Shown here piece after piece: positions 10,212 to 23,849 of a stretch of DNA of 24,629 nt (its first letter is position 1; every line of letters begins with the position of its first letter). Source of the DNA: a virus; the IMG/VR virus record IMGVR_UViG_3300018065_000071, positions 1-24,629 of that record; one strand, 5' to 3'. The notes under the pieces were generated by a model. It saw nothing but the letters and a program-made list of their open reading frames with translations, made no database searches and was not told where the DNA came from. The position numbers and the translations under genes are program-made.

Positions 10212-10979
10212 ATGTCCTGGTTCTCGTCTGACAGCCAATGGCGCGCACCGGTCACCGTCGACAACAACGGCGGGACTTCGCCGATTGATGTTTCTATCGC
10301 CATCCCCGGTGACTTCGGGGCGTTCTGGGGCAACGTCGACGCCAGCGGCCACAGCATCAAGGTCTGCGACTCGGACGGCTACACCGAGCTGACATGGCAG
10401 CGGCAGACGTGGAACTACGCGAACCGGCAAGCGGTCATCGAGGTCGACGGGTGGGTGCCGGACAGCACCGACGGAACGTGCGTGCTGTACCTGTACTGGG
10501 GCGAGGACAGCCCGACAGATTCGTCCGGGTCGTTCACCGCGAGCACCCCGAAGACCGGTACGGTCCTTCCGAGTCGCCCGGCACCGGGTCAGGTCATCGT
10601 CGACGCGCAGCCGCTCCCGGTCGGGCAGGATGTGCCCCGCGCGTCCTACAGCCTGTCGCCGAACGAAGATAGGTATCTCGCCTTCGACATCACCCGCCAT
10701 CTGATGCGCCAGTCGGCGCCGTTCAATGGCCGGCTTGACTACGAAGAGGTCGCAGTTGTCGAGGTCGAGACCCGCACCGTGGGCGGCGCATACGCGGGCG
10801 GCAATGTCAAGGCCAACACGCGGGTGACGCAGTGGGACGGGCGCACACTTGTCTTCATGTGGGTGACCGGGTCTGCTGACAACACCGACTACGTGGACGA
10901 GGTGGAGGTCATCACGTCCACGGGTCGAGAACTCATTTTCGCGGCGGTACGAACCGCTAACACCGCTGAGGAGTCGTAA
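10212..10979 (+). CDS. DUF2341-like beta-sandwich virion protein
   Basis: A 255-residue protein from ATG 10212, two bases after the tail terminator stop. Residues about 1-100 fit the DUF2341 pattern seen in bacterial extracellular proteins: an opening aromatic/Arg segment (QWRAPVTVDNNGG), then DVSIAIPGDFGAFW, an 'IKVCDSDGYTEL' strand, a Trp pair, and YLYWGEDSP near the end of the domain. The C-terminal 150 residues are a second beta-rich region (FDITRHLMRQSAPFNG, VKANTRVTQWDG) with no family I recognise. It has no signal peptide and lies between terminator and tail tube genes, so it is probably a virion component, perhaps a tail or neck decoration that binds carbohydrate. Function is inferred. 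Confidence 0.55.
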   Translation: MSWFSSDSQWRAPVTVDNNGGTSPIDVSIAIPGDFGAFWGNVDASGHSIKVCDSDGYTELTWQRQTWNYANRQAVIEVDGWVPDSTDGTCVLYLYWGEDSPTDSSGSFTASTPKTGTVLPSRPAPGQVIVDAQPLPVGQDVPRASYSLSPNEDRYLAFDITRHLMRQSAPFNGRLDYEEVAVVEVETRTVGGAYAGGNVKANTRVTQWDGRTLVFMWVTGSADNTDYVDEVEVITSTGRELIFAAVRTANTAEES

Positions 10980-11947
10980 TGGCCAGTGTCCTACTTGGGC
11001 GGAATGCCGCCGTCGGCATCGGGTTCGAGAGCACCGAGGGCACCGCTGTAGCGGCTGCGCTGTGGGCGCGTCTCGCCTCGCTGTCTCTCACCGCCGTGTC
11101 GAACCGCGTGCGCATCGACGACCTGTCTCTGGGCGGCACCGGCTACCTACAGGCGCGGTACCTCGAGCAGGTCGACGTGTCCGGCAGCATGGAGATTATC
11201 TCCTACTACAAGGGAGGCGCGTTTGCGTCGTTCCTCCGCGCTTGCATCGGCGGGACGTGGGTGGACTCGGGCGCCGGCCCTTACACGCACGTCCTCGATC
11301 CCGGTGCGGAGCCTCCCGCGGTCACGTTCCGCACGGCGCGGGACACCCTGTCCTCGTCCGGCGCGCTCCAGAAGGGCGACGTCATCGCCGGGGCACGGGT
11401 CACCTCCGCGACCATCTCGGCCGAGACGCCGGGGCTTCTGCGGCTGTCGCTCAACTTCGTAGCGATGAGCTCGACACCGGGCAGCGCCCCGACGCACTCG
11501 CTTGCAGTCCACGACGACCCCATCGTGTACCACCAGGGCGGCACCTGGGGATGGAACTCGGCGAACTACACGCTCCGGTCGCTGTCGCTGGAGCTCGAAA
11601 ACGCCGTGGAAGGTCTGCGCGGCTTCGGGTCGAGCAGCATCAACGGCGCCGCGGTGACGGGCATCCGCAACGCTCGCCTGACTGCGACCCGCTACAAGAC
11701 CTCCGACGACTGGGCAGACGCGCAGACCGCGGGCACCGAGAGCGACGGCGCAATCACGTTCACCAGCGGGACCGATTCGTTCCGGATCGTTCTCTTCAAC
11801 TCGCTCATTCCCGAGGGGGTCGCGCTTGACGCACAGTCCGTCGGGTTGGTCGAAGAGTCGGCCATCTTTGAGCCGCGGGACGACGGGACCGGCCCCGTGT
11901 TGCGCTTCACACTCGTCAACGACGACGCGACCGCTGAGGCTTCGTGA
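10979..11947 (+). CDS. Major tail tube protein
   Basis: A 322-residue protein whose ATG shares a base with the preceding stop (TAATG). It opens with LLGRNAAVGIGFESTEGTAV, the usual start of large siphovirus tail tube proteins ('G...v.i..E...GT...'), then has LARYL/QVDVSGSMEI and GGAFASFLRACIG strands, and ends with an acidic beta-rich C-terminus (GPVLRFTLVND). Stacked hexameric rings of this protein form the tail tube. Location upstream of the chaperone pair and the tape measure is the conserved order in siphoviruses. At over 300 residues it is longer than minimal tube proteins and probably has an extra outer domain. Confidence 0.75.
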   Translation: MASVLLGRNAAVGIGFESTEGTAVAAALWARLASLSLTAVSNRVRIDDLSLGGTGYLQARYLEQVDVSGSMEIISYYKGGAFASFLRACIGGTWVDSGAGPYTHVLDPGAEPPAVTFRTARDTLSSSGALQKGDVIAGARVTSATISAETPGLLRLSLNFVAMSSTPGSAPTHSLAVHDDPIVYHQGGTWGWNSANYTLRSLSLELENAVEGLRGFGSSSINGAAVTGIRNARLTATRYKTSDDWADAQTAGTESDGAITFTSGTDSFRIVLFNSLIPEGVALDAQSVGLVEESAIFEPRDDGTGPVLRFTLVNDDATAEAS

Positions 11948-12435
11948 TGCTCGACCTTGCCGCACTTGCTGCACCGACGTGGGTGGAGACCGCGGGGCTC
12001 GGGCGTCGTCTCGACTTCGGGTGCATCCCGCTGTCCCCCGGCGACTTTGACAACCACGCGTCCACCCTCTTCGGGCTCGTGGCCGGGGTCGAGGGCGACA
12101 AGCCCGCGCGTGAGCCGACCGCCGCAGACCTGCAACACCTCCAGGTCATCGCGTGTCTGACGGTCCGTCATGTCCGCGCGCCGGGGGGCGAGTCGCAGCC
12201 GTTCCGCTTCGTGCTGGACGAGGGCGCCGAGGACCCCAGCGCGGGCCGCTTCTGGATTGGCCGGCTTCCCTCGCTTGAGGTGGGGCAGGTCGCCGGGGCA
12301 GCGCTCAAGGACTACATCGAGGCGGCTACGCGTGCGGCCCGATTTCGCCGCGGACCCGAGGACGGCGCACATGCTGGACGAGATGGCGAGGCGGTACGGT
12401 CGGAGTCCGGCGACGTGGCTGCGGCGGCCGGGTGA
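11947..12435 (+). CDS. Tail assembly chaperone, upstream frame (gpG-like)
   Basis: A 162-residue protein from ATG 11947, overlapping the tail tube stop in TGATG; GTG 11944 is a possible alternative. It contains a mixed helical and beta sequence (LDFGCIPLSPGDFDNHA, LQVIACLTVRHVRAP, FRFVLDEGAEDPS) and reads well until about residue 133. The last 30 residues (after RAARF) are compositionally different and look like a poorly constrained tail, while a well-formed frame continues one base over. This is the arrangement of lambda G/T-type chaperones, which coat the tape measure during tail assembly. It precedes the tape measure gene, as expected. Confidence 0.7.
   Translation: MLDLAALAAPTWVETAGLGRRLDFGCIPLSPGDFDNHASTLFGLVAGVEGDKPAREPTAADLQHLQVIACLTVRHVRAPGGESQPFRFVLDEGAEDPSAGRFWIGRLPSLEVGQVAGAALKDYIEAATRAARFRRGPEDGAHAGRDGEAVRSESGDVAAAAG
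12340..12348 (+). promoter_or_regulatory. Candidate +1 programmed frameshift site
   Basis: In the upstream chaperone frame the codons are CGA UUU CGC CGC. A ribosome with Phe-tRNA on UUU (12343-12345) could slip forward one base onto UUC and continue with GCC at 12347, entering the downstream frame. The UUU-CG context is the one used by influenza PA-X. The fused product would be 207 residues (133 from the first frame, 74 from the second). CCC-G at 12355 is a weaker alternative. Confidence 0.45.
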
Positions 12436-12571
12436 TGGGCCGGTCCTGTCGATGTGGCTTGACCTCCTGATGTGCCGGGTCTGCACGGCGGCGGGTGTCG
12501 ATTCGCAGCGGCAATGGCTACAGCGCAACGGCCAACACGTCATGTGGGTGATGCCCGCACCGGGGAGCTGA
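12371..12571 (+). CDS. Tail assembly chaperone, downstream frame (gpT-like)
   Basis: The frame one base over from the upstream chaperone encodes LDEMARRYGRSPATWLRRPGDG and then MWLDLLMCRV, the short helical pattern common in T-type chaperone extensions. It is most likely made as a +1 frameshift fusion that enters this frame near 12347. It could instead start independently at ATG 12371, which has GAGGA eight bases upstream and would give 66 residues (the coordinates listed). Two Cys residues and a Trp/Gln/Asn-rich C-terminus follow. The stop is one base before the tape measure ATG. The fused form would bind the tape measure while the short form recruits tube protein, as in lambda; this is by analogy. 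Confidence 0.6.
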   Translation: MLDEMARRYGRSPATWLRRPGDGPVLSMWLDLLMCRVCTAAGVDSQRQWLQRNGQHVMWVMPAPGS

Positions 12572-12572
12572 G

Positions 12573-14903
12573 ATGGCAGACGGAATCGTAGAATACGTCC
12601 TCCGGCTCAAGGACCAGACAAAGCAGGGCACCGCGTCCGCAGTCACCGGGTCAAAGCGACTCGAGGACCAGACCGAGAAGACCACGCGCGCCGTAGACGA
12701 CCTCGGCGACGAGGCGGTCCAGACCTCCAAGCAGCTCGACCGGATGGGCAAGGAGTCGACTTCTGCTGCGCGTGCGCAGTCCGGCCTCTCGCGTGGCCTT
12801 TCCGGGGCCGTGACGGGCGCTGGGCGGCTCCTGTCGTCGGTGGGGGGCCTGACTACCGCCATCGGCGCCGCGGGCCTTGCCGGGGCAACTACGGCCGCTG
12901 TGGTGTCGTTTCGTGCGGCTGCGCAGGAGGTAGCCGACCTCCGCAACGACATCGCGGACGCGTCTACCCGCTCGGGCATCGCCACGGACACGCTCCAGGG
13001 GCTACGACTCGCCGCGGAGGGCGCGGGGCTACAGTTAGCGGCCCTCACCTCGGGCCTCGACCAGTTTGGCCGGCGGGTGTCCGACGCGGCACGGGGCGGC
13101 AACGCGACCGCGGAGGCATTCGCCGAGCTCGGCGTGTCCGTCACCGACGCAAACGGAGACATTCGGGACGGGGATGCAGTCCTCCGCGAGACCCTCGCCG
13201 CGCTGAATGCGATGGAACCGTCGGCGCAACGGTCGGCGCTTGCGGTCGAAACGCTCGGGCGCGCTGGCGGGCGCTTGCTTCAGGCGCTTTCGGGCTCGGA
13301 GTTGGATTCGTTCGTCGCGCTCGCCGATGAATTCGGCGTCGGTGTCGGCCCTCGGGCCGCGCAATCGGCCGGAGAGTGGCAACGCGCGGTTGCCGAGCTC
13401 GGGGTGGTCCTCGATGGCGTAAAGGGGCAGTTGGTTGACGCGTTCGGCGGCGGCGCAAACCTCGTGTTCGACCTATCCGAGGCGGTCGTCATCTCCGTCG
13501 AGGTCATCAAGGGCGCGCTGTCTGGGTTCACTACGGGCATTAGCAACATCGCAGACGACATCATCGCGCCGTTTCAGTCGTTGCTCGATGTGCTCGCGGG
13601 CATCAATCGGGCGCTGGACGAGGCCGCAAAGGGCAACTACGCGGCGGCGGCATCGGCGGCGGCAGACGCGGCGGTCGCAGCCGGAAAGGCGCTTGCACAG
13701 GCCCCGTCCGCAGCCCTCACCGCTACGGGTGGGCTCACTGGCGCGCTCCCTGGCTTAGCAGCCGACACCCTCATAGGCGCACAGGCTGGCCTTGAGGCCG
13801 GGCAGGAACGGGCTGAACGGCTCCGTGAGCTCCGGGCGGCGACCGGTGCTGCGCAGCGCGCTCCAGACCTCGGCGACGGCGGCGGCGGCGACGGCGGCGG
13901 GCAGGAATCGGCCTCGCGCGTGTTCGCGTCTGGGTTCACCGACCCCGAGGCCGTCGCCACCGAGGCGGCTGTAGCGGCCTCGCGCGTGTTCGCGTCTGGG
14001 TTCACCGAGGACCGACGGCGGCTGTCTGATGTGCTCGCGGAGGGTGCGGAGAACCTCGCCGAGCAGGTCGAAAAGACAGCCGCGGCGGCGGCCGAAAGCC
14101 GTGCAAGAACCCTGGGTGGGGTGAGCACAGGCATCGGGGTGGGAACGTCTGTCCTACAAGGAAACATCGGCGGCGCTCTCGGGCAGGCTGGGCGCGCGGT
14201 CGGGTCTGCGGGGCTGTCGGCGGCGGCGTCTTCGCTCGGTGTCGCGGGCGCTGTGGTGTCTGGTCTTCAGTTCATCGGCGAGCAGGGTGCGGAGGGGATT
14301 TCGGACACCCTCAACGGCGTGAAGGATTCGCTTGTCGCCGCGCTGGAGGCGTTGCCCGAGCTCATCGGGGATGTGCTGCCTGATTTCGCCGTGGCTCTCA
14401 TCCGTGACCTCATCCCCGCGCTCATCGAGGCCAGCCCGCAGATTTTTTACGCGCTCCTCGTGGAGCTCCCCGGCGCAATCGGGGACGCGGTAGCCAAGGC
14501 CATCGGGGTCGAATCAGAGGCCGGGAAAGGGGCAATCCGGGGCGGCTCCATCGGCGCGGTGATCGGCGGCGTGGTCGGCGGGGTTACGCTGGGCCTGCTT
14601 ACGGGCGGGGTTGCTACCGGCGCAGGGATCAAGCTCGGCGCCGCGGGCGGTGGCGCAATCGGCGCTGTCGTTGGCGCAATCGCCAGCGGTCGGTCTTCCC
14701 GGAGTAGCGACGCCGCGCGCACCGCCACCGACGGACAGGCCGCGACGGCTAGAGAGTCGGACCGACTCGCGCAGGTCTCCATCCGACCCCGTCGGCAGAA
14801 AATAGCCGTCCGCCAGAACCCCTACGACACCCTCGCGCGGCAGTACGACGCTCAATACGGTACACTCGGACGCGCATCCTCTACCACCATCGGGGCAACA
14901 TGA
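12573..14903 (+). CDS. Tape measure protein
   Basis: A 776-residue protein from ATG 12573. The N-terminal 70 residues are a charged coiled coil. A hydrophobic Gly/Ala stretch follows (LLSSVGGLTTAIGAAGLAGA, about 86-105), then long helices typical of tape measures (VADLRNDIADASTRSGI, LQGLRLAAEGAGLQLA). A Gly-rich hinge and a repeated ASRVFASGFT motif lie at about 430-480. The C-terminal third is hydrophobic and ends with a Gly-zipper (about 652-708: GGSIGAVIGGVVGG and onward), suited to membrane insertion during DNA entry. At roughly 0.15 nm per residue the tail would be about 115 nm. It sets tail length and is ejected before the DNA. No peptidase or lysozyme motif was seen. Confidence 0.88.
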   Translation: MADGIVEYVLRLKDQTKQGTASAVTGSKRLEDQTEKTTRAVDDLGDEAVQTSKQLDRMGKESTSAARAQSGLSRGLSGAVTGAGRLLSSVGGLTTAIGAAGLAGATTAAVVSFRAAAQEVADLRNDIADASTRSGIATDTLQGLRLAAEGAGLQLAALTSGLDQFGRRVSDAARGGNATAEAFAELGVSVTDANGDIRDGDAVLRETLAALNAMEPSAQRSALAVETLGRAGGRLLQALSGSELDSFVALADEFGVGVGPRAAQSAGEWQRAVAELGVVLDGVKGQLVDAFGGGANLVFDLSEAVVISVEVIKGALSGFTTGISNIADDIIAPFQSLLDVLAGINRALDEAAKGNYAAAASAAADAAVAAGKALAQAPSAALTATGGLTGALPGLAADTLIGAQAGLEAGQERAERLRELRAATGAAQRAPDLGDGGGGDGGGQESASRVFASGFTDPEAVATEAAVAASRVFASGFTEDRRRLSDVLAEGAENLAEQVEKTAAAAAESRARTLGGVSTGIGVGTSVLQGNIGGALGQAGRAVGSAGLSAAASSLGVAGAVVSGLQFIGEQGAEGISDTLNGVKDSLVAALEALPELIGDVLPDFAVALIRDLIPALIEASPQIFYALLVELPGAIGDAVAKAIGVESEAGKGAIRGGSIGAVIGGVVGGVTLGLLTGGVATGAGIKLGAAGGGAIGAVVGAIASGRSSRSSDAARTATDGQAATARESDRLAQVSIRPRRQKIAVRQNPYDTLARQYDAQYGTLGRASSTTIGAT
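13909..14008 (+). repeat. In-frame 34-bp direct repeat in tape measure gene
   Basis: A perfect 34-bp direct repeat occupies 13909-13942 and 13975-14008, offset by exactly 66 bp (22 codons). It encodes ASRVFASGFT twice, at about residues 447 and 469. The intervening sequence is partly similar in composition. It sits in the hinge between the helical and hydrophobic regions, and the perfect identity at DNA level suggests a recent duplication. Confidence 0.85.
14861..14866 (+). promoter_or_regulatory. Possible -10 element before distal tail gene
   Basis: TACACT lies 33 bases before the ATG of the distal tail gene, inside the end of the tape measure gene. It fits a TAnnnT -10 pattern but lacks the TG extension and any -35. 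The gene's ribosome binding site is also weak. Reported as a possibility only. Confidence 0.2.
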
Positions 14904-15661
14904 GCGTCACGACCATCTATTGGTACCCGATGGGCACGGGCAACGTGGAGACCATCACGCTTCCGTTCATCACCTCGCTCGAGGACGATGACCCCGAGGT
15001 CGAGGCGGCCACGTCGGAGACCATCGGCGGCGGGATGTACCGGCAGCTTTACGGCGACTGGCGGCGGGTGGTCATCACGCGGCAGAATCTCCGGCCGGAC
15101 GACGCCACCGAAGCTGAGACCATCCGGGGCCTCCGGTCGCTGCAATCGCACCTCATCGCCGGGTATTCGGTCGGTATTGCGGTGGGTGCGGGGGCGACCT
15201 TCGGGTCCTACACGGTCGCCGGCATCGGGCGCGGTGCCGGGACTCTCGGCATCCCCGCGAACACCTACGGCCCCTGGGACCCGTCCGCGGTGCTGTCCGC
15301 GGGTGACGAGGTGGTGCTACAGTCGCCCTCCCCGGACGGCGCCCGAGAGGTCCACACGCTGTCAGCGGTGACGCCCATCGGGTCTACGTTCGCACTCGTG
15401 CTTACGCGAAACACGCGCTACGACCATCCTGGCCCTATCCTCGTGCGTCGGCGGACATTCTACCCGCACCTCAAGCTACCAGACGACCAATTGGATACGC
15501 CCATCATCACGTCATCGACGCGCGGCCGTACCTACGATTTGCGGCTGGAGCTCCGCGAAGACATGCAGGAGGCGTGGGACACGGGCACCGCCGGCGAAGC
15601 GCTCACCGGTCCGACCGGACAGCCGCGCACCTACAGCGGCATCCTCGCCGGGCGCTTCTGA
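14900..15661 (+). CDS. Distal tail-like protein
   Basis: A 253-residue protein overlapping the tape measure stop in ATGA. It is beta-rich with a long, ordered sequence (TIYWYPMGTGNVETITLP at the start, VVITRQNLRPDD, then DEVVLQSPSPDG and FALVLTRNTRYD) and ends in GILAGRF. In siphoviruses the gene directly after the tape measure usually encodes the distal tail protein, the ring at the tube tip to which the hub attaches. That context, with its size, is the main evidence; I do not recognise a specific family motif. The stop overlaps the next start (TGATG). Confidence 0.55.
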   Translation: MSVTTIYWYPMGTGNVETITLPFITSLEDDDPEVEAATSETIGGGMYRQLYGDWRRVVITRQNLRPDDATEAETIRGLRSLQSHLIAGYSVGIAVGAGATFGSYTVAGIGRGAGTLGIPANTYGPWDPSAVLSAGDEVVLQSPSPDGAREVHTLSAVTPIGSTFALVLTRNTRYDHPGPILVRRRTFYPHLKLPDDQLDTPIITSSTRGRTYDLRLELREDMQEAWDTGTAGEALTGPTGQPRTYSGILAGRF

Positions 15662-17193
15662 TGCCGTGGTCTACCGCTCTACTGTCCGCGCTTGCGGCCC
15701 CTGCGGCCCGGCTACGTCTGTCGCTCGCGAAGATTCCCGACTCGTGGGGACCGGGCACGTCTGCGGGCGCGGCTACGTCGGACCCGCGCACCGGGGTGGG
15801 GGGAATCTCGACGGATGCCGCCATCGCGATGTCTTCGCAGTCGGTTTCTGTGCCCCGCTGGACGACCAATCGCGGCACCGCACGGGTAGGGCTCGGCTCT
15901 ATCGCCGCGGGACATTGGGTGGCGCAGAACATGCCCCGCGGGTCGCTCGTTCAAATCGGCGGCCGTGTGGCGGGCATGGCGACGGCAGACCGTCTGTTCG
16001 TGGGGCAGCTCCGCGACCTTGAGGGAGTCGGACCTCGCACCATCGTGTCGGCCTGGGACATCCTCGCAAGCCTCGGGACGCAGACCGGGTGGTTTGCTGG
16101 ACTCGACTCGGGCGCGCTGTTCTACCACTGCGACCCAGACAGCATCAATACCCGGACCTTGGCGCTTCCTTACACCCCCGGGGATACCGCATTGGGATGC
16201 AACGCGGCCACGAATTTTGGGAAGCCAACCGGCGCAGACGGCGCGGTGCTCGTGACTCCTACGTCGGGTACAGACCCCTTCCTCCTGACCTTTTCGTCGC
16301 AGTCTGGTGCGGTGGTGTCGGGCGTGTCGGACGCGCACGGATGGGGTGCGCCATCTTCCGTCGCGGCCGTCGGGTCGACGGTGCAGGAGGTCGCGTGGAT
16401 GGCCGGGCACCCGCTCCGGGTCGCGCGGCGCATTCTCGCGAGCACCGGCAACGGCACGAACGGTGCAGACGACGTGTACCCGGCGGCGTGGGGATTCGGC
16501 TTGCCGGCCGCCTACATCGACACGGTGGGAATCAATCTGTGGGCTGGCCTCACTGACCCGAGGTCGGGTACGCATTCGGTGCGCATCGTCTCGACGACAC
16601 CGCAGGACGGTCTATCGTGGCTCGAGGGGCGCCTGTCCGCCTACGGGATGTGGCTAACCATGCGGCAAGGGCAGGTCACCGGCCGAGGGGCGGTCGACTA
16701 CGGCGGGTCACGTCCGCCGCTCGTGATGACGCTCGACCGGAGCCGCATCCTGCGGGGTGAGCCCGTTCGGTCGCTGTACGACAGCGGCAGCTCGGCCGAG
16801 TACGCGCGGACAGCAACCCGGTACGGGACCGTCTCGCCCACGACGGTAGAATCTGCGCTCACTCTCCCCGACACGCGGCCCGCGCACGGGTCCTACCTCA
16901 CCGACTACGGGGACGAGCTGTACCAGAATCAGGCGAACATCGCCGCACGGCTGAATCAACGGCTCGGCGCCTACCGTGAGCGTATCCCGGTGTCGGTGGA
17001 CGTCTCGTGTCGGCTCGACGCCGCGCAGCTATGCCCCGGTGATTGGGTGCTACTAAAACACCGGGGGGTCTGGACGCAGGACGACCTGGACGGCGGCCCG
17101 ACCGTTGCGATGGTCGCGGAGGTGTCGGTGGACTGGTCTGCGGGTGTCGTCACACTCACACTCTACATTCAGCCCGGCGAGGGGCTATACTAG
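15661..17193 (+). CDS. Tail hub / tip protein
   Basis: A 510-residue protein. ATG 15661 is chosen because it overlaps the preceding stop in TGATG; the in-frame ATG at 15574 lies inside the distal tail gene. The C-terminal half (LNQRLGAYRERIPVSVDV, LCPGDWVLLKHRGVWTQDD, VDWSAGVVTLTLYIQPGEG) has the look of gp27/hub-like barrels of tail baseplates, in which a 'PGD.V.l' turn is common. The middle contains WDILASLGTQTGWF and a 'MWLTMRQGQVTGRG' stretch. It would form the trimeric hub below the distal tail ring. No peptidoglycan hydrolase domain is visible. The call is by position, size and fold-like pattern. Confidence 0.55.
   Translation: MPWSTALLSALAAPAARLRLSLAKIPDSWGPGTSAGAATSDPRTGVGGISTDAAIAMSSQSVSVPRWTTNRGTARVGLGSIAAGHWVAQNMPRGSLVQIGGRVAGMATADRLFVGQLRDLEGVGPRTIVSAWDILASLGTQTGWFAGLDSGALFYHCDPDSINTRTLALPYTPGDTALGCNAATNFGKPTGADGAVLVTPTSGTDPFLLTFSSQSGAVVSGVSDAHGWGAPSSVAAVGSTVQEVAWMAGHPLRVARRILASTGNGTNGADDVYPAAWGFGLPAAYIDTVGINLWAGLTDPRSGTHSVRIVSTTPQDGLSWLEGRLSAYGMWLTMRQGQVTGRGAVDYGGSRPPLVMTLDRSRILRGEPVRSLYDSGSSAEYARTATRYGTVSPTTVESALTLPDTRPAHGSYLTDYGDELYQNQANIAARLNQRLGAYRERIPVSVDVSCRLDAAQLCPGDWVLLKHRGVWTQDDLDGGPTVAMVAEVSVDWSAGVVTLTLYIQPGEGLY
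17186..17191 (+). promoter_or_regulatory. Putative -10 element before tail tip gene
   Basis: TATACT matches the bacterial -10 consensus at five of six positions and overlaps the hub gene stop. Transcription would start at about 17198, next to a hairpin and 20 bases before the next ATG. No -35 of normal spacing was found. Confidence 0.35.
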
Positions 17194-21419: not shown

Positions 21420-21665
21420 CTAAATCAGTCCGGTGTCGATGGATTCGGCGGCATCAAGGGCCGCGCTTTTGGCGCGCGTCAACGTCTCCGCGAAACCCGA
21501 GGCCACCGCGTGGAATCGGCCAGTCGGCCCGATACGAGCTACCAGCCATCGCCACCCGTCGAAGTCGGAGTCGGGGTAGATCTCAAGCTCCGCATAAGGC
21601 GAGCGGATGGTCATCTGATAGTGTCCACCGGACTGATACCAGGGGGTGAGGCGGGGGCGGGTCAT
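21420..21665 (-). CDS. Small hypothetical protein of early operon
   Basis: An 81-residue protein starting at 21665 on the minus strand; GGAGGGAGAGA directly upstream is a clear ribosome binding site. The long frame open to 22388 on this strand is a shadow of the genes upstream. It contains a compact pattern (YQMTIRSPYAELEIYPDSDF, then WRWLVARIGPTGRF) and a closing Ala-rich helix (TLTRAKSAALDAAESID), typical of small phage proteins of unknown role. Its start overlaps the stop of the winged-helix-like gene by four bases. Confidence 0.65.
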   Translation of the reverse strand: MTRPRLTPWYQSGGHYQMTIRSPYAELEIYPDSDFDGWRWLVARIGPTGRFHAVASGFAETLTRAKSAALDAAESIDTGLI

Positions 21666-21967
21666 TCTCTCCCTCCAGGCGAGTGCTCGCGCCAAGCGGA
21701 AATCAGCGCCACACCAAGCTTGGTCGGGGCAATCACAGCGACCCGGCGCCGATATTCCCTCATCCCGTTTTCGCTGTGTAGTCTGCACGGCATGTTTCGC
21801 GACCCGTAGGTCACGAGACCGTATCTGCGCAGCCGGGTCGCGTACCGCCGGACTATTCGCTGCTGCGGCTCGGGCCATAGCTGGTGCACGACATCTGGCT
21901 TGCCGATATCGATCCAGTCGACGATCTCGCCAAGAAACAGCATCGCGCTCCTGGGAAGTCCGAGCAT
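21662..21967 (-). CDS. Winged-helix-like protein
   Basis: A 101-residue protein from ATG at 21967, overlapping the recT stop in TGATG (GTG 21970 is an alternative). The order of short helices and a possible wing (PEPQQRIVRRYATRLRRYGL, then VTYGSRNMPCRLHSENG, then YRRRVAVIAPTKLGVALIS) resembles a winged helix-turn-helix of the kind in phage replication or regulatory proteins. It is strongly basic in the middle, which fits DNA binding. No exact family is recognised. Its place after exo and recT suggests a regulator or accessory factor of recombination or replication. Confidence 0.5.
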   Translation of the reverse strand: MLGLPRSAMLFLGEIVDWIDIGKPDVVHQLWPEPQQRIVRRYATRLRRYGLVTYGSRNMPCRLHSENGMREYRRRVAVIAPTKLGVALISAWREHSPGGRE

Positions 21968-22839
21968 CACACGGCCATCGGGTCGGAGGGGTCGCCGTTG
22001 TCCGGGTCGGGCAGGATTTCCGCCTCAACCTCCTCGAGTTCGGGCTCGGGCGGTGCGAATGCTGCGGACGGCAGGGCGGGGGCATCCCGCTGGACGACGA
22101 TGGGCGCGGGCCGCTCGTCGGCGACAGTCGCGCGGGTGTCGGCGGCAAGTGCGTTGTCGAGCTCCACCGACTCGATGGGCACGAGGCCACGGGCACACGC
22201 CCATTTGATGGCCGTTTTCTGCGCCATCTCCAGGGGCCACGACTTCCACACAGAACCAGCACCACGGGCGCTCGCCCGCGCGTGGTTCTCACGCTTGCGG
22301 ACATCGGCACCGGGAAGCCAGTAGCGACCGAGGATTGCACCGTCGGCGAGACGGCGACACGACACGATGACCCCGGCGATGTGGTCAATGGTGAGCGGTT
22401 CCGAACCGATTTCGGCGCGGTGTTCGGTCACCTCGCCGAACTCTACCACGATGTGGTCGTGGTGGCCTACGACACAGGTGGAGAGTTGGTAGCCGGCGCG
22501 GCGGCAGAGCTGGGTGAGGCCCCGGTGGCTAATCATCCACTGGAGCTCGCCGGACCGAGGGACGAGCCACACCGACGGCATCGCACCGCCCGGCATGAGG
22601 CCCGTGAGCGCGGACATGGCGACTGCCGAGGCGATGCTCGCGGGACTACACCGCTCGATGTCCCGCGGGTTGCGAGCGGCGCGGTGGGCGGCGGCAAAGG
22701 CCATCCCGACACGGGCGGCGGCTTCGGTGGCGCGCTCCTCACCCACGAGGTCCGTAAGCATGGACCCGGCCATGTGCTGGACACGGCGGCGGAGGGTCGG
22801 CGGTGCGTTGTTGCGTCGTTGCAGGTTGGTCATGGTCAC
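21967..22839 (-). CDS. recT: RecT family single-strand annealing protein
   Basis: A 290-residue protein from GTG at 22839, overlapping the exonuclease stop in GTGA; ATG 22833, two codons in, is an alternative start. RecT features are CSPASIASAVAMSALTGLMP (about 64-83), VWLVPRSGELQWMISHRGL (about 90-108), a following DHIVVEFG strand, and VWKSWPLEMAQKTAIKWACA (about 197-216). The C-terminal 60 residues are acidic and Pro-rich (PEPELEEVEAEILPDPD), possibly a partner-binding tail. The protein binds single-stranded DNA ends made by the exonuclease and anneals them, for phage recombination or replication. Adjacent placement with a YqaJ-like nuclease is the standard Red/RecET arrangement. Confidence 0.9.
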   Translation of the reverse strand: MTMTNLQRRNNAPPTLRRRVQHMAGSMLTDLVGEERATEAAARVGMAFAAAHRAARNPRDIERCSPASIASAVAMSALTGLMPGGAMPSVWLVPRSGELQWMISHRGLTQLCRRAGYQLSTCVVGHHDHIVVEFGEVTEHRAEIGSEPLTIDHIAGVIVSCRRLADGAILGRYWLPGADVRKRENHARASARGAGSVWKSWPLEMAQKTAIKWACARGLVPIESVELDNALAADTRATVADERPAPIVVQRDAPALPSAAFAPPEPELEEVEAEILPDPDNGDPSDPMAV

Positions 22840-23849
22840 AGTCCCCGGATGGTGAGGCGGCCCCGTGCGGACACGGACGCCGTGATTTTGCCTGCGGTGC
22901 TCTTGGCGCGGATGCCGGCGCTACCGCTGTCGGCGATGGTGTCGCGCAGTCGAGCGCGGAGGGTATCGATCTGGGCCTTGTCGGCTTTGTGGCGGTGGGT
23001 GAGCTCGGCCAAGTCGGCGAGCATCGAGACCTCTTCAGGCTCGGCGTCCCGCTTGCCCTTGAGGGGGTCGCGCTTGCTGTCCCATGGCGGCGGCGGGCGG
23101 TGCTCGAGGGGTTCTGCGCCCTCGACAATGATGCGCTGGTGTGCGTCGGCCAGCGAAGTGGTTACGGCGTCGCACAGGTCGCCGTCGCGCCAGATGCGCA
23201 TACGGGCAGTGTCCTCGACTGCGACAGGCGTGTCCCAGCCCGCGACCATGTGCCCGACCTTGACGTCCTGAGCAAAGAGGCAGTAGAGGTCGCAGTAGTC
23301 GAGGCCGGACGCGAGCAGGTGGGCGACGCATTGGACTACGTACTGACGGTCGACAGGCCACCGGCCCATGCTTGATGCCGCATCGAGGTCCGCGAGCGTG
23401 CGAATCTCCAGGTCTGCCGACGGGTAGCCGCCGCGCTTCCAAGGCTGGATGACCTTGTACTCGCAGACGCCCACACCCTCGGGCGTCCGGCAGAACGCAT
23501 CGGGAGACACGGACAGCACTCCAGACGTAACTGTCATGTGCAGGTCGACGCCCCAGGTTTGTGCGCCGGTCTCCTCGCGGTACAGACGGTCGGCGAGACC
23601 TTCGAGGGCGAGGCCGCGGGCGAGCAGGCGCGGGTCTGCCGGCTTGCGCTCCTCGAGCAAGTGCGGCGCGTGGACGGCTGCCCACACATCCCACGGGGTG
23701 CGCCAGGGGGAGAGGCCGAGGAGGGCGGCGGCGGTTGTCGAGCCGACGCCGCCGGACGCAATGCGCTCCTGACGGGCCGCGAGCCATGCGTCCCGGCCCG
23801 TGTGGATGTCGACGGGGCAGGGGAGCCAGGTGGGTACGGTCGCGGTCAT
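22836..23849 (-). CDS. YqaJ-like / lambda-type exonuclease
   Basis: A 337-residue protein starting at 23849 with GAGGTG upstream, overlapping the previous stop in ATGA. The N-terminus (RDAWLAARQERIASGGVGSTTAAALLGLSPWRT, in parts about 19-51) is the YqaJ signature. PD-(D/E)XK residues are Glu83 (ALEG), Asp117 (SPDAF), Glu130 and Lys132 (EYK), and Gln173 (QYVVQ). The enzyme degrades one strand of double-stranded ends and hands single strands to RecT. Residues about 240-337 form a charged, helical tail beyond the nuclease domain (DLAELTHRHKADKAQID) with a short beta-like end. The pair is transcribed from the promoter at 24113-24141. Confidence 0.9.
   Translation of the reverse strand: MTATVPTWLPCPVDIHTGRDAWLAARQERIASGGVGSTTAAALLGLSPWRTPWDVWAAVHAPHLLEERKPADPRLLARGLALEGLADRLYREETGAQTWGVDLHMTVTSGVLSVSPDAFCRTPEGVGVCEYKVIQPWKRGGYPSADLEIRTLADLDAASSMGRWPVDRQYVVQCVAHLLASGLDYCDLYCLFAQDVKVGHMVAGWDTPVAVEDTARMRIWRDGDLCDAVTTSLADAHQRIIVEGAEPLEHRPPPPWDSKRDPLKGKRDAEPEEVSMLADLAELTHRHKADKAQIDTLRARLRDTIADSGSAGIRAKSTAGKITASVSARGRLTIRGL

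Follow-up and report, generated by a model that had tools for sequence, protein, structure and literature searches.

By what route do ribosomes reach the second of two overlapping phage chaperone frames when that frame lies at +1, not -1, relative to the first? The frameshifts of phage chaperone genes are mostly of the -1 type; those of the +1 type are less numerous and have ill-defined signals. The question is raised by IMG/VR record IMGVR_UViG_3300018065_000071, a tailed-phage genome fragment of 24,629 bases and 68% G+C that was analysed over its whole length and is referred to here as the window. Directly between its tail tube and tape measure genes lie two overlapping frames, as in the G/G-T arrangement of phage lambda: an upstream "zero frame" for a likely tail assembly chaperone, G, and a downstream frame for a second domain, T. 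Comparison with related sequences suggests that the main route to T in this uncultivated tailed-phage group is, with high probability, a +1 frameshift at the sequence UUU_CGC.

Frame use and conservation at UUU_CGC

The zero-frame open reading frame (ORF) extends from 11938 to 12435, with a start at ATG 11947 (GTG 11944 is a possible alternative) and a stop at 12433-12435, and the downstream frame is open from 12161 to 12571. The T frame does not occupy the -1 position of a lambda-type frameshift; it lies at +1, as a model's earlier note on this DNA, made from the letters alone, had stated and as the ORF coordinates and the relatives confirm. The hexamer TTT CGC occupies 12343-12348, with CGA (12340-12342) immediately 5' of it. 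Reading TTTC as a single Phe step yields a joined product of 207 amino acids, in which TRAARF is followed at the junction by AADPRTAHMLDEMARRYG and which consists of 133 G residues and a 74-residue T domain.

To establish which frame is translated where, the number of nonsynonymous codons in each frame was compared with a simulated expectation (3000 simulations). Upstream of the site the zero frame is constrained, with 50 nonsynonymous codons against 67.9 expected, and the +1 frame is not (68 against 67.9). Between the site and ATG 12371 the +1 frame has 19 nonsynonymous codons where 30.7 are expected, a value that none of the 3000 simulations reached, and the zero frame shows no constraint (32 against 29.3). 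The +1 constraint and the lack of zero-frame constraint persist further 3', including the 12349-12435 overlap, and the most variable codon position, which before the site is the zero-frame third base, becomes at the site the third base in +1. Coding constraint changes from the zero frame to +1 at UUU_CGC. Because it does so at the site, the +1 frame is very probably translated from there onward, ahead of any ATG, and the comparison strongly favours T being made as an extension of G. The impression recorded in the earlier note, that the first frame reads well before this point and the second after it, is borne out by both the substitution pattern and the phase of variability.

A search with the tail tube protein identified 18 IMG/VR loci, and a T-domain search added three more distant ones (L053-L055, 40-44% identity). 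The aligned comparison set comprised 16 sequences, in which T is conserved as a protein with identity down to about 40%. UUU_CGC is invariant at the frame transition, at fixed spacing, in 16/16 of these, so that the retention of UUU_C and of both frames, which had been proposed as a check, extends to every relative. A scan of IMG/VR DNA for a T peptide motif, blind to the site, returned 15 contigs, all previously found relatives, and UUU_CGC stands in the same phase 34 nucleotides upstream of the motif in 15/15. The conservation at the frame transition that characterizes UUU_CGN sites is therefore present in both sets. No relatives were found in annotated phage genomes or in 84,980 prokaryote genomes. 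Distant Phage_tube_2 matches were excluded from the comparison: L073, which has a -1 arrangement, and L074 and L075, which look unrelated. L073 (4000-4586) and L076 (3971-4563), both distant Phage_tube_2 relatives, each have a pair of small, overlapping ORFs ahead of the tape measure gene, the second at -1 in L073, and these pairs are probably ordinary -1 chaperone shifts.

The choice of codons at the site is also distinctive. Of the 16 sequences, 13 have CGA and 3 have GGG immediately before UUU_CGC, and the one-step intermediates between them, CGG and GGA, were not seen at this position (window 12340-12342). Among eight diverged lineages CGA and UUU are fixed at the site; at other invariant Arg columns CGA occurs in at most 2/8, and UUU and UUC both occur within the other invariant Phe columns. 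UUU is the minority Phe codon in the window (28 UUU, 99 UUC), and zero-frame UUU_C occurs only three times in the 5,614 codons of its likely genes. Given this rarity, the identity in 16/16 sequences and the change of constraint at the site, UUU_CGC is more than a chance occurrence. Outside the site UUU is seldom followed by CGN (3/156 UUU versus 27/342 UUC, p=0.008), a small count that fits a codon pair avoided for its tendency to slip; avoidance of UUU_C in general did not reach significance (p=0.20).

Proposed slippage and its alternatives

In the proposed mechanism, a programmed +1 frameshift in the chaperone gene of a siphovirus, the majority of ribosomes would complete the zero frame and produce G, of 162 amino acids. 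A minority, carrying tRNA-Phe (anticodon GAA) on the P-site UUU while the A site presents CGC, would move one base forward, where the same tRNA-Phe would pair with UUC; GCC (Ala) would be decoded next, leading to the G-T fusion. On the lambda and HK97 model, G in excess, together with a small amount of G-T, would then attach to the tape measure protein and bring in tail tube subunits. Four points are inferred: that ribosomes slip, that they do so in the +1 direction (from the logic of re-pairing), that they do so at low frequency, and that G acts as a chaperone (from gene order and fold). In bacteria, UUU_Ynn sequences readily undergo +1 shifts, and the chaperone genes of tailed phages variously use -1, -2 or +1 shifts (PMC5009743). 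The +1 slip from UUU to UUC, recognized in the earlier note, is cognate at all three positions, and at no other position is re-pairing cognate throughout the relatives; the alignment has no other conserved entry into the +1 frame. Transcriptional slippage was rejected, the run being just three U, and a phage tRNA reading four bases was likewise rejected, there being no tRNA in the window.

A -2 frameshift resembling that of phage Mu would reach the same frame with one extra residue, and GenBank notes for haloviruses with the same site label their shift -2. However, a tRNA-Phe moved two bases back would sit on GAU or GGU, the neighbouring codons offer no cognate re-pairing, and codon -6 is unconserved. 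Since the +1 slip is fully cognate and a -2 slip gives no re-pairing, the direction is taken to be +1, and a -2 shift is highly improbable.

T might instead be a separate gene with an independent start at ATG 12371 (or ATG 12383), reached by re-initiation or coupling. The ATG and its upstream GAGGA are present as previously described, an ATG at +28 with GAGG or GGAG upstream is found in the window and seven relatives (L004, L010-L013, L015 and L016), and all relatives have an ATG in frame, at +22, +28, +31 or +40. Yet the position of ATG 12371 is occupied by Gln in L005 and L006 and by Ser in L007-L009, and a start there leaves the invariant UUU_CGC unaccounted for. The eight codons between the site and this ATG are, moreover, under +1-frame purifying selection. 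Because that segment evolves as +1-frame protein, initiation at 12371 alone is insufficient, and the outcome named in the earlier note as refuting a frameshift, a T product made only from 12371, does not hold. Separate initiation at this ATG is accordingly very unlikely as the source of T, and a start there may add a short T form.

The serious rival among the initiation readings is a start at the +1-frame GTG 12332, which has GAGG about ten bases before it. The GTG has a counterpart in 12/16 sequences, with GAGG also upstream in 10/16, and TTTCGC would follow from double coding alone, with one frame reading Phe-Arg and the other Phe-Ala. As translation of two frames through the site has this effect, invariance alone is no proof of slippage. 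The argument for slippage rests instead on the missing upstream +1 constraint and the missing starts, which answer the double-coding caveat. The unconstrained +1 frame upstream speaks against entry at the GTG; the GTG is absent in L007, L008 and L053, and L054 has a GTG at -5 instead; in L008 the +1 frame contains no start codon (ATG, GTG or TTG) between a stop at -185 and +19; and the GAGG is part of the codons for a conserved zero-frame Glu-Ala pair. We therefore assign initiation at GTG 12332 only a slight probability.

In addition to the weakening of invariance as proof by double coding, several observations weigh against a programmed +1 frameshift. A rare A-site codon, a proposed stimulator that is not required for sites of the UUU_CGN type, is lacking, as CGC is used more than any other Arg codon in the window (173/441). 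RNA 3' of the site folds no more strongly than shuffled sequences in 10/11 cases, the remaining one being L055, whose downstream fold is slightly stronger than its shuffles (z -1.2); z-scores ranged overall from -1.2 to 1.1. The alignment yields no genuine consensus RNA structure, at an energy of just -4.2 kcal/mol, and downstream structure was rejected as a stimulator, and no Shine-Dalgarno-like sequence was found adjacent to the site. UUU_CGN is not a sufficient marker alone, because an in-frame UUU_CGU (TCG TTT CGU GCG) also occurs at 12909-12914 in the tape measure gene, where no second frame was seen. Finally, the family is a small one, with some 20 contigs in IMG/VR. What stands out at the site is the E-site codon, CGA, and a role for it would match, by analogy, that of the E-site codon in influenza PA-X; the UUU_CGU at 12909 is a natural negative control for this question.

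The locus and its proteins

The genes of the window follow the usual order of terminase, portal, head, neck, tail tube and tape measure, and the order around the chaperone frames (Table 1) is kept in relatives. Long ORFs 3' of the tape measure gene, between 15574 and 24620 (for example 15574-17193 and 21646-23271), have no PHROG match. The host is likely bacterial, because Shine-Dalgarno motifs precede many window genes and the window, unlike the halovirus HSTV-2, is not acid-rich.

Table 1. Positions of the chaperone frames, candidate signals and flanking genes in the window.
Feature	Position	Strand	Remarks
Tail tube protein gene	10979..11947	+	Pfam Phage_tube_2, E=6.6e-20; PHROG 290 minor tail protein; directly upstream of the chaperone frames
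Zero-frame tail assembly chaperone (G), likely	11947..12435	+	162 amino acids without a shift; from ORF and position between tube and tape measure genes
Candidate shift cassette CGA_UUU_CGC	12340..12348	+	E-, P- and A-site codons during the proposed slip; skipped base would be C12346
+1-frame T domain	12347..12571	+	74 amino acids after the slip, AADPRTAHMLDEMARRYG...PAPGS; stop at 12569-12571
Overlap after the site	12349..12435	+	Zero-frame tail of G plus its stop; in the +1 frame also T
+1-frame GTG, rival start just before the site	12332..12334	+	GAGG upstream
ATG, proposed independent T start	12371..12373	+	GAGGA at 12358-12362; unconserved
Tape measure protein gene	12573..14903	+	PHROG 2276 tail length tape measure, E=1.8e-20; directly downstream of T

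Neither G nor T has a useful sequence-family match in Pfam, PHROGs or NCBIfam, and the structures of the two parts were predicted separately. The G model (residues 1-133) has a mean predicted local distance difference test score (pLDDT) of 82, and its best solved match is the HK97 tail assembly chaperone 2ob9, with a middling Z of 5.7 over 96 residues; 2ob9 is one of just three chains with Z >= 2. Several viral models in BFVD that match G, with weak E-values, carry the name tail assembly chaperone, and a Foldseek search of the PDB alone with the G model gave nothing significant. The T domain is predicted to be all-helical. Gene order and the modelled fold together indicate that G is likely a tail assembly chaperone, which lends moderate support to an assignment that had earlier been assumed.

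Known frameshift sites and the meaning of the proposed one

The closest parallel is found in the HF1-group and HSTV-2 haloviruses, for which a 2020 paper proposed TTT-CGC as the HF1-group +1 site (PMC7230728). These viruses (L092-L098, and L090 at 15457-15515) have UUU_CGC_AGA at the end of the first chaperone frame, and they share with the window the position between tube and tape measure genes, the +1 frame, the conserved UUU_CGC and the Phe-Ala junction. They differ in being archaeal myoviruses, in having AAG or UCC as the E-site codon where the window family has CGA or GGG, and in the zero-frame stop, which lies within a few codons of the site, as against 29 in the window. Their shift is annotated publicly as +1 or -2, and re-pairing favours +1. 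Descent of the window proteins from halovirus chaperones was considered and set aside, with no sequence similarity detected.

Other systems share parts of the arrangement. Lambda G/G-T and HK97 also have a two-frame gene before the tape measure gene, and the fold of G is nearest to that of HK97 2ob9, but lambda shifts -1 where the window would shift +1 on UUU_C, and sequence similarity to the lambda and HK97 chaperones was undetected. The shift in phage Mu gpGT leads to the same relative frame, in a comparable gene; Mu, however, slips -2, and the window has no -2 re-pairing site. Bacterial RF2 (prfB, CUU_UGA) provides a precedent in bacteria for a +1 slip of the P-site tRNA, but that type needs a stop in the A site and a Shine-Dalgarno-like sequence just upstream; both are absent from the window, where the A-site codon is CGC. 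The UUU_CGN core and the +1 slip also occur, on eukaryotic ribosomes, in plant amalgaviruses (PMC5052127) and in influenza A PA-X (UCC_UUU_CGU; PMC3498833), the latter with a conserved E-site codon as in the window. In PA-X, changes to UCC reduced shifting by 40-70%, and the rarity of CGU applies to PA-X hosts (PMC3498833). The likeness to PA-X drawn in the earlier note thus stands for the UUU_CG core, but not for the UCC E-site codon, replaced here by CGA or GGG, nor for the rare A-site codon, since CGC is common in the window.

Because UUU_CGC was proposed earlier for the HF1 group and the proteins are dissimilar, the kind of site is not new and the window family is a new case of it, one that appears from its sequences to be independent and bacterial. 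The family offers a clean, deeply conserved +1 site, whose hexamer recurs independently in archaeal viruses. With this family, what the E-site codon contributes and whether a slow A-site codon is needed become questions open to direct test in a bacterial reporter, and the site aids the annotation of phages in which the T domain is currently missed or split. We suggest, tentatively, that UUU_CGC may be a cross-domain +1 cassette taken up separately by the chaperone genes of unrelated bacterial and archaeal tailed viruses, here with CGA or GGG in the E site and without a stop, Shine-Dalgarno-like element, rare A-site codon or RNA structure. If this is true, UUU_CGC would be a compact, portable +1 signal for bacteria.
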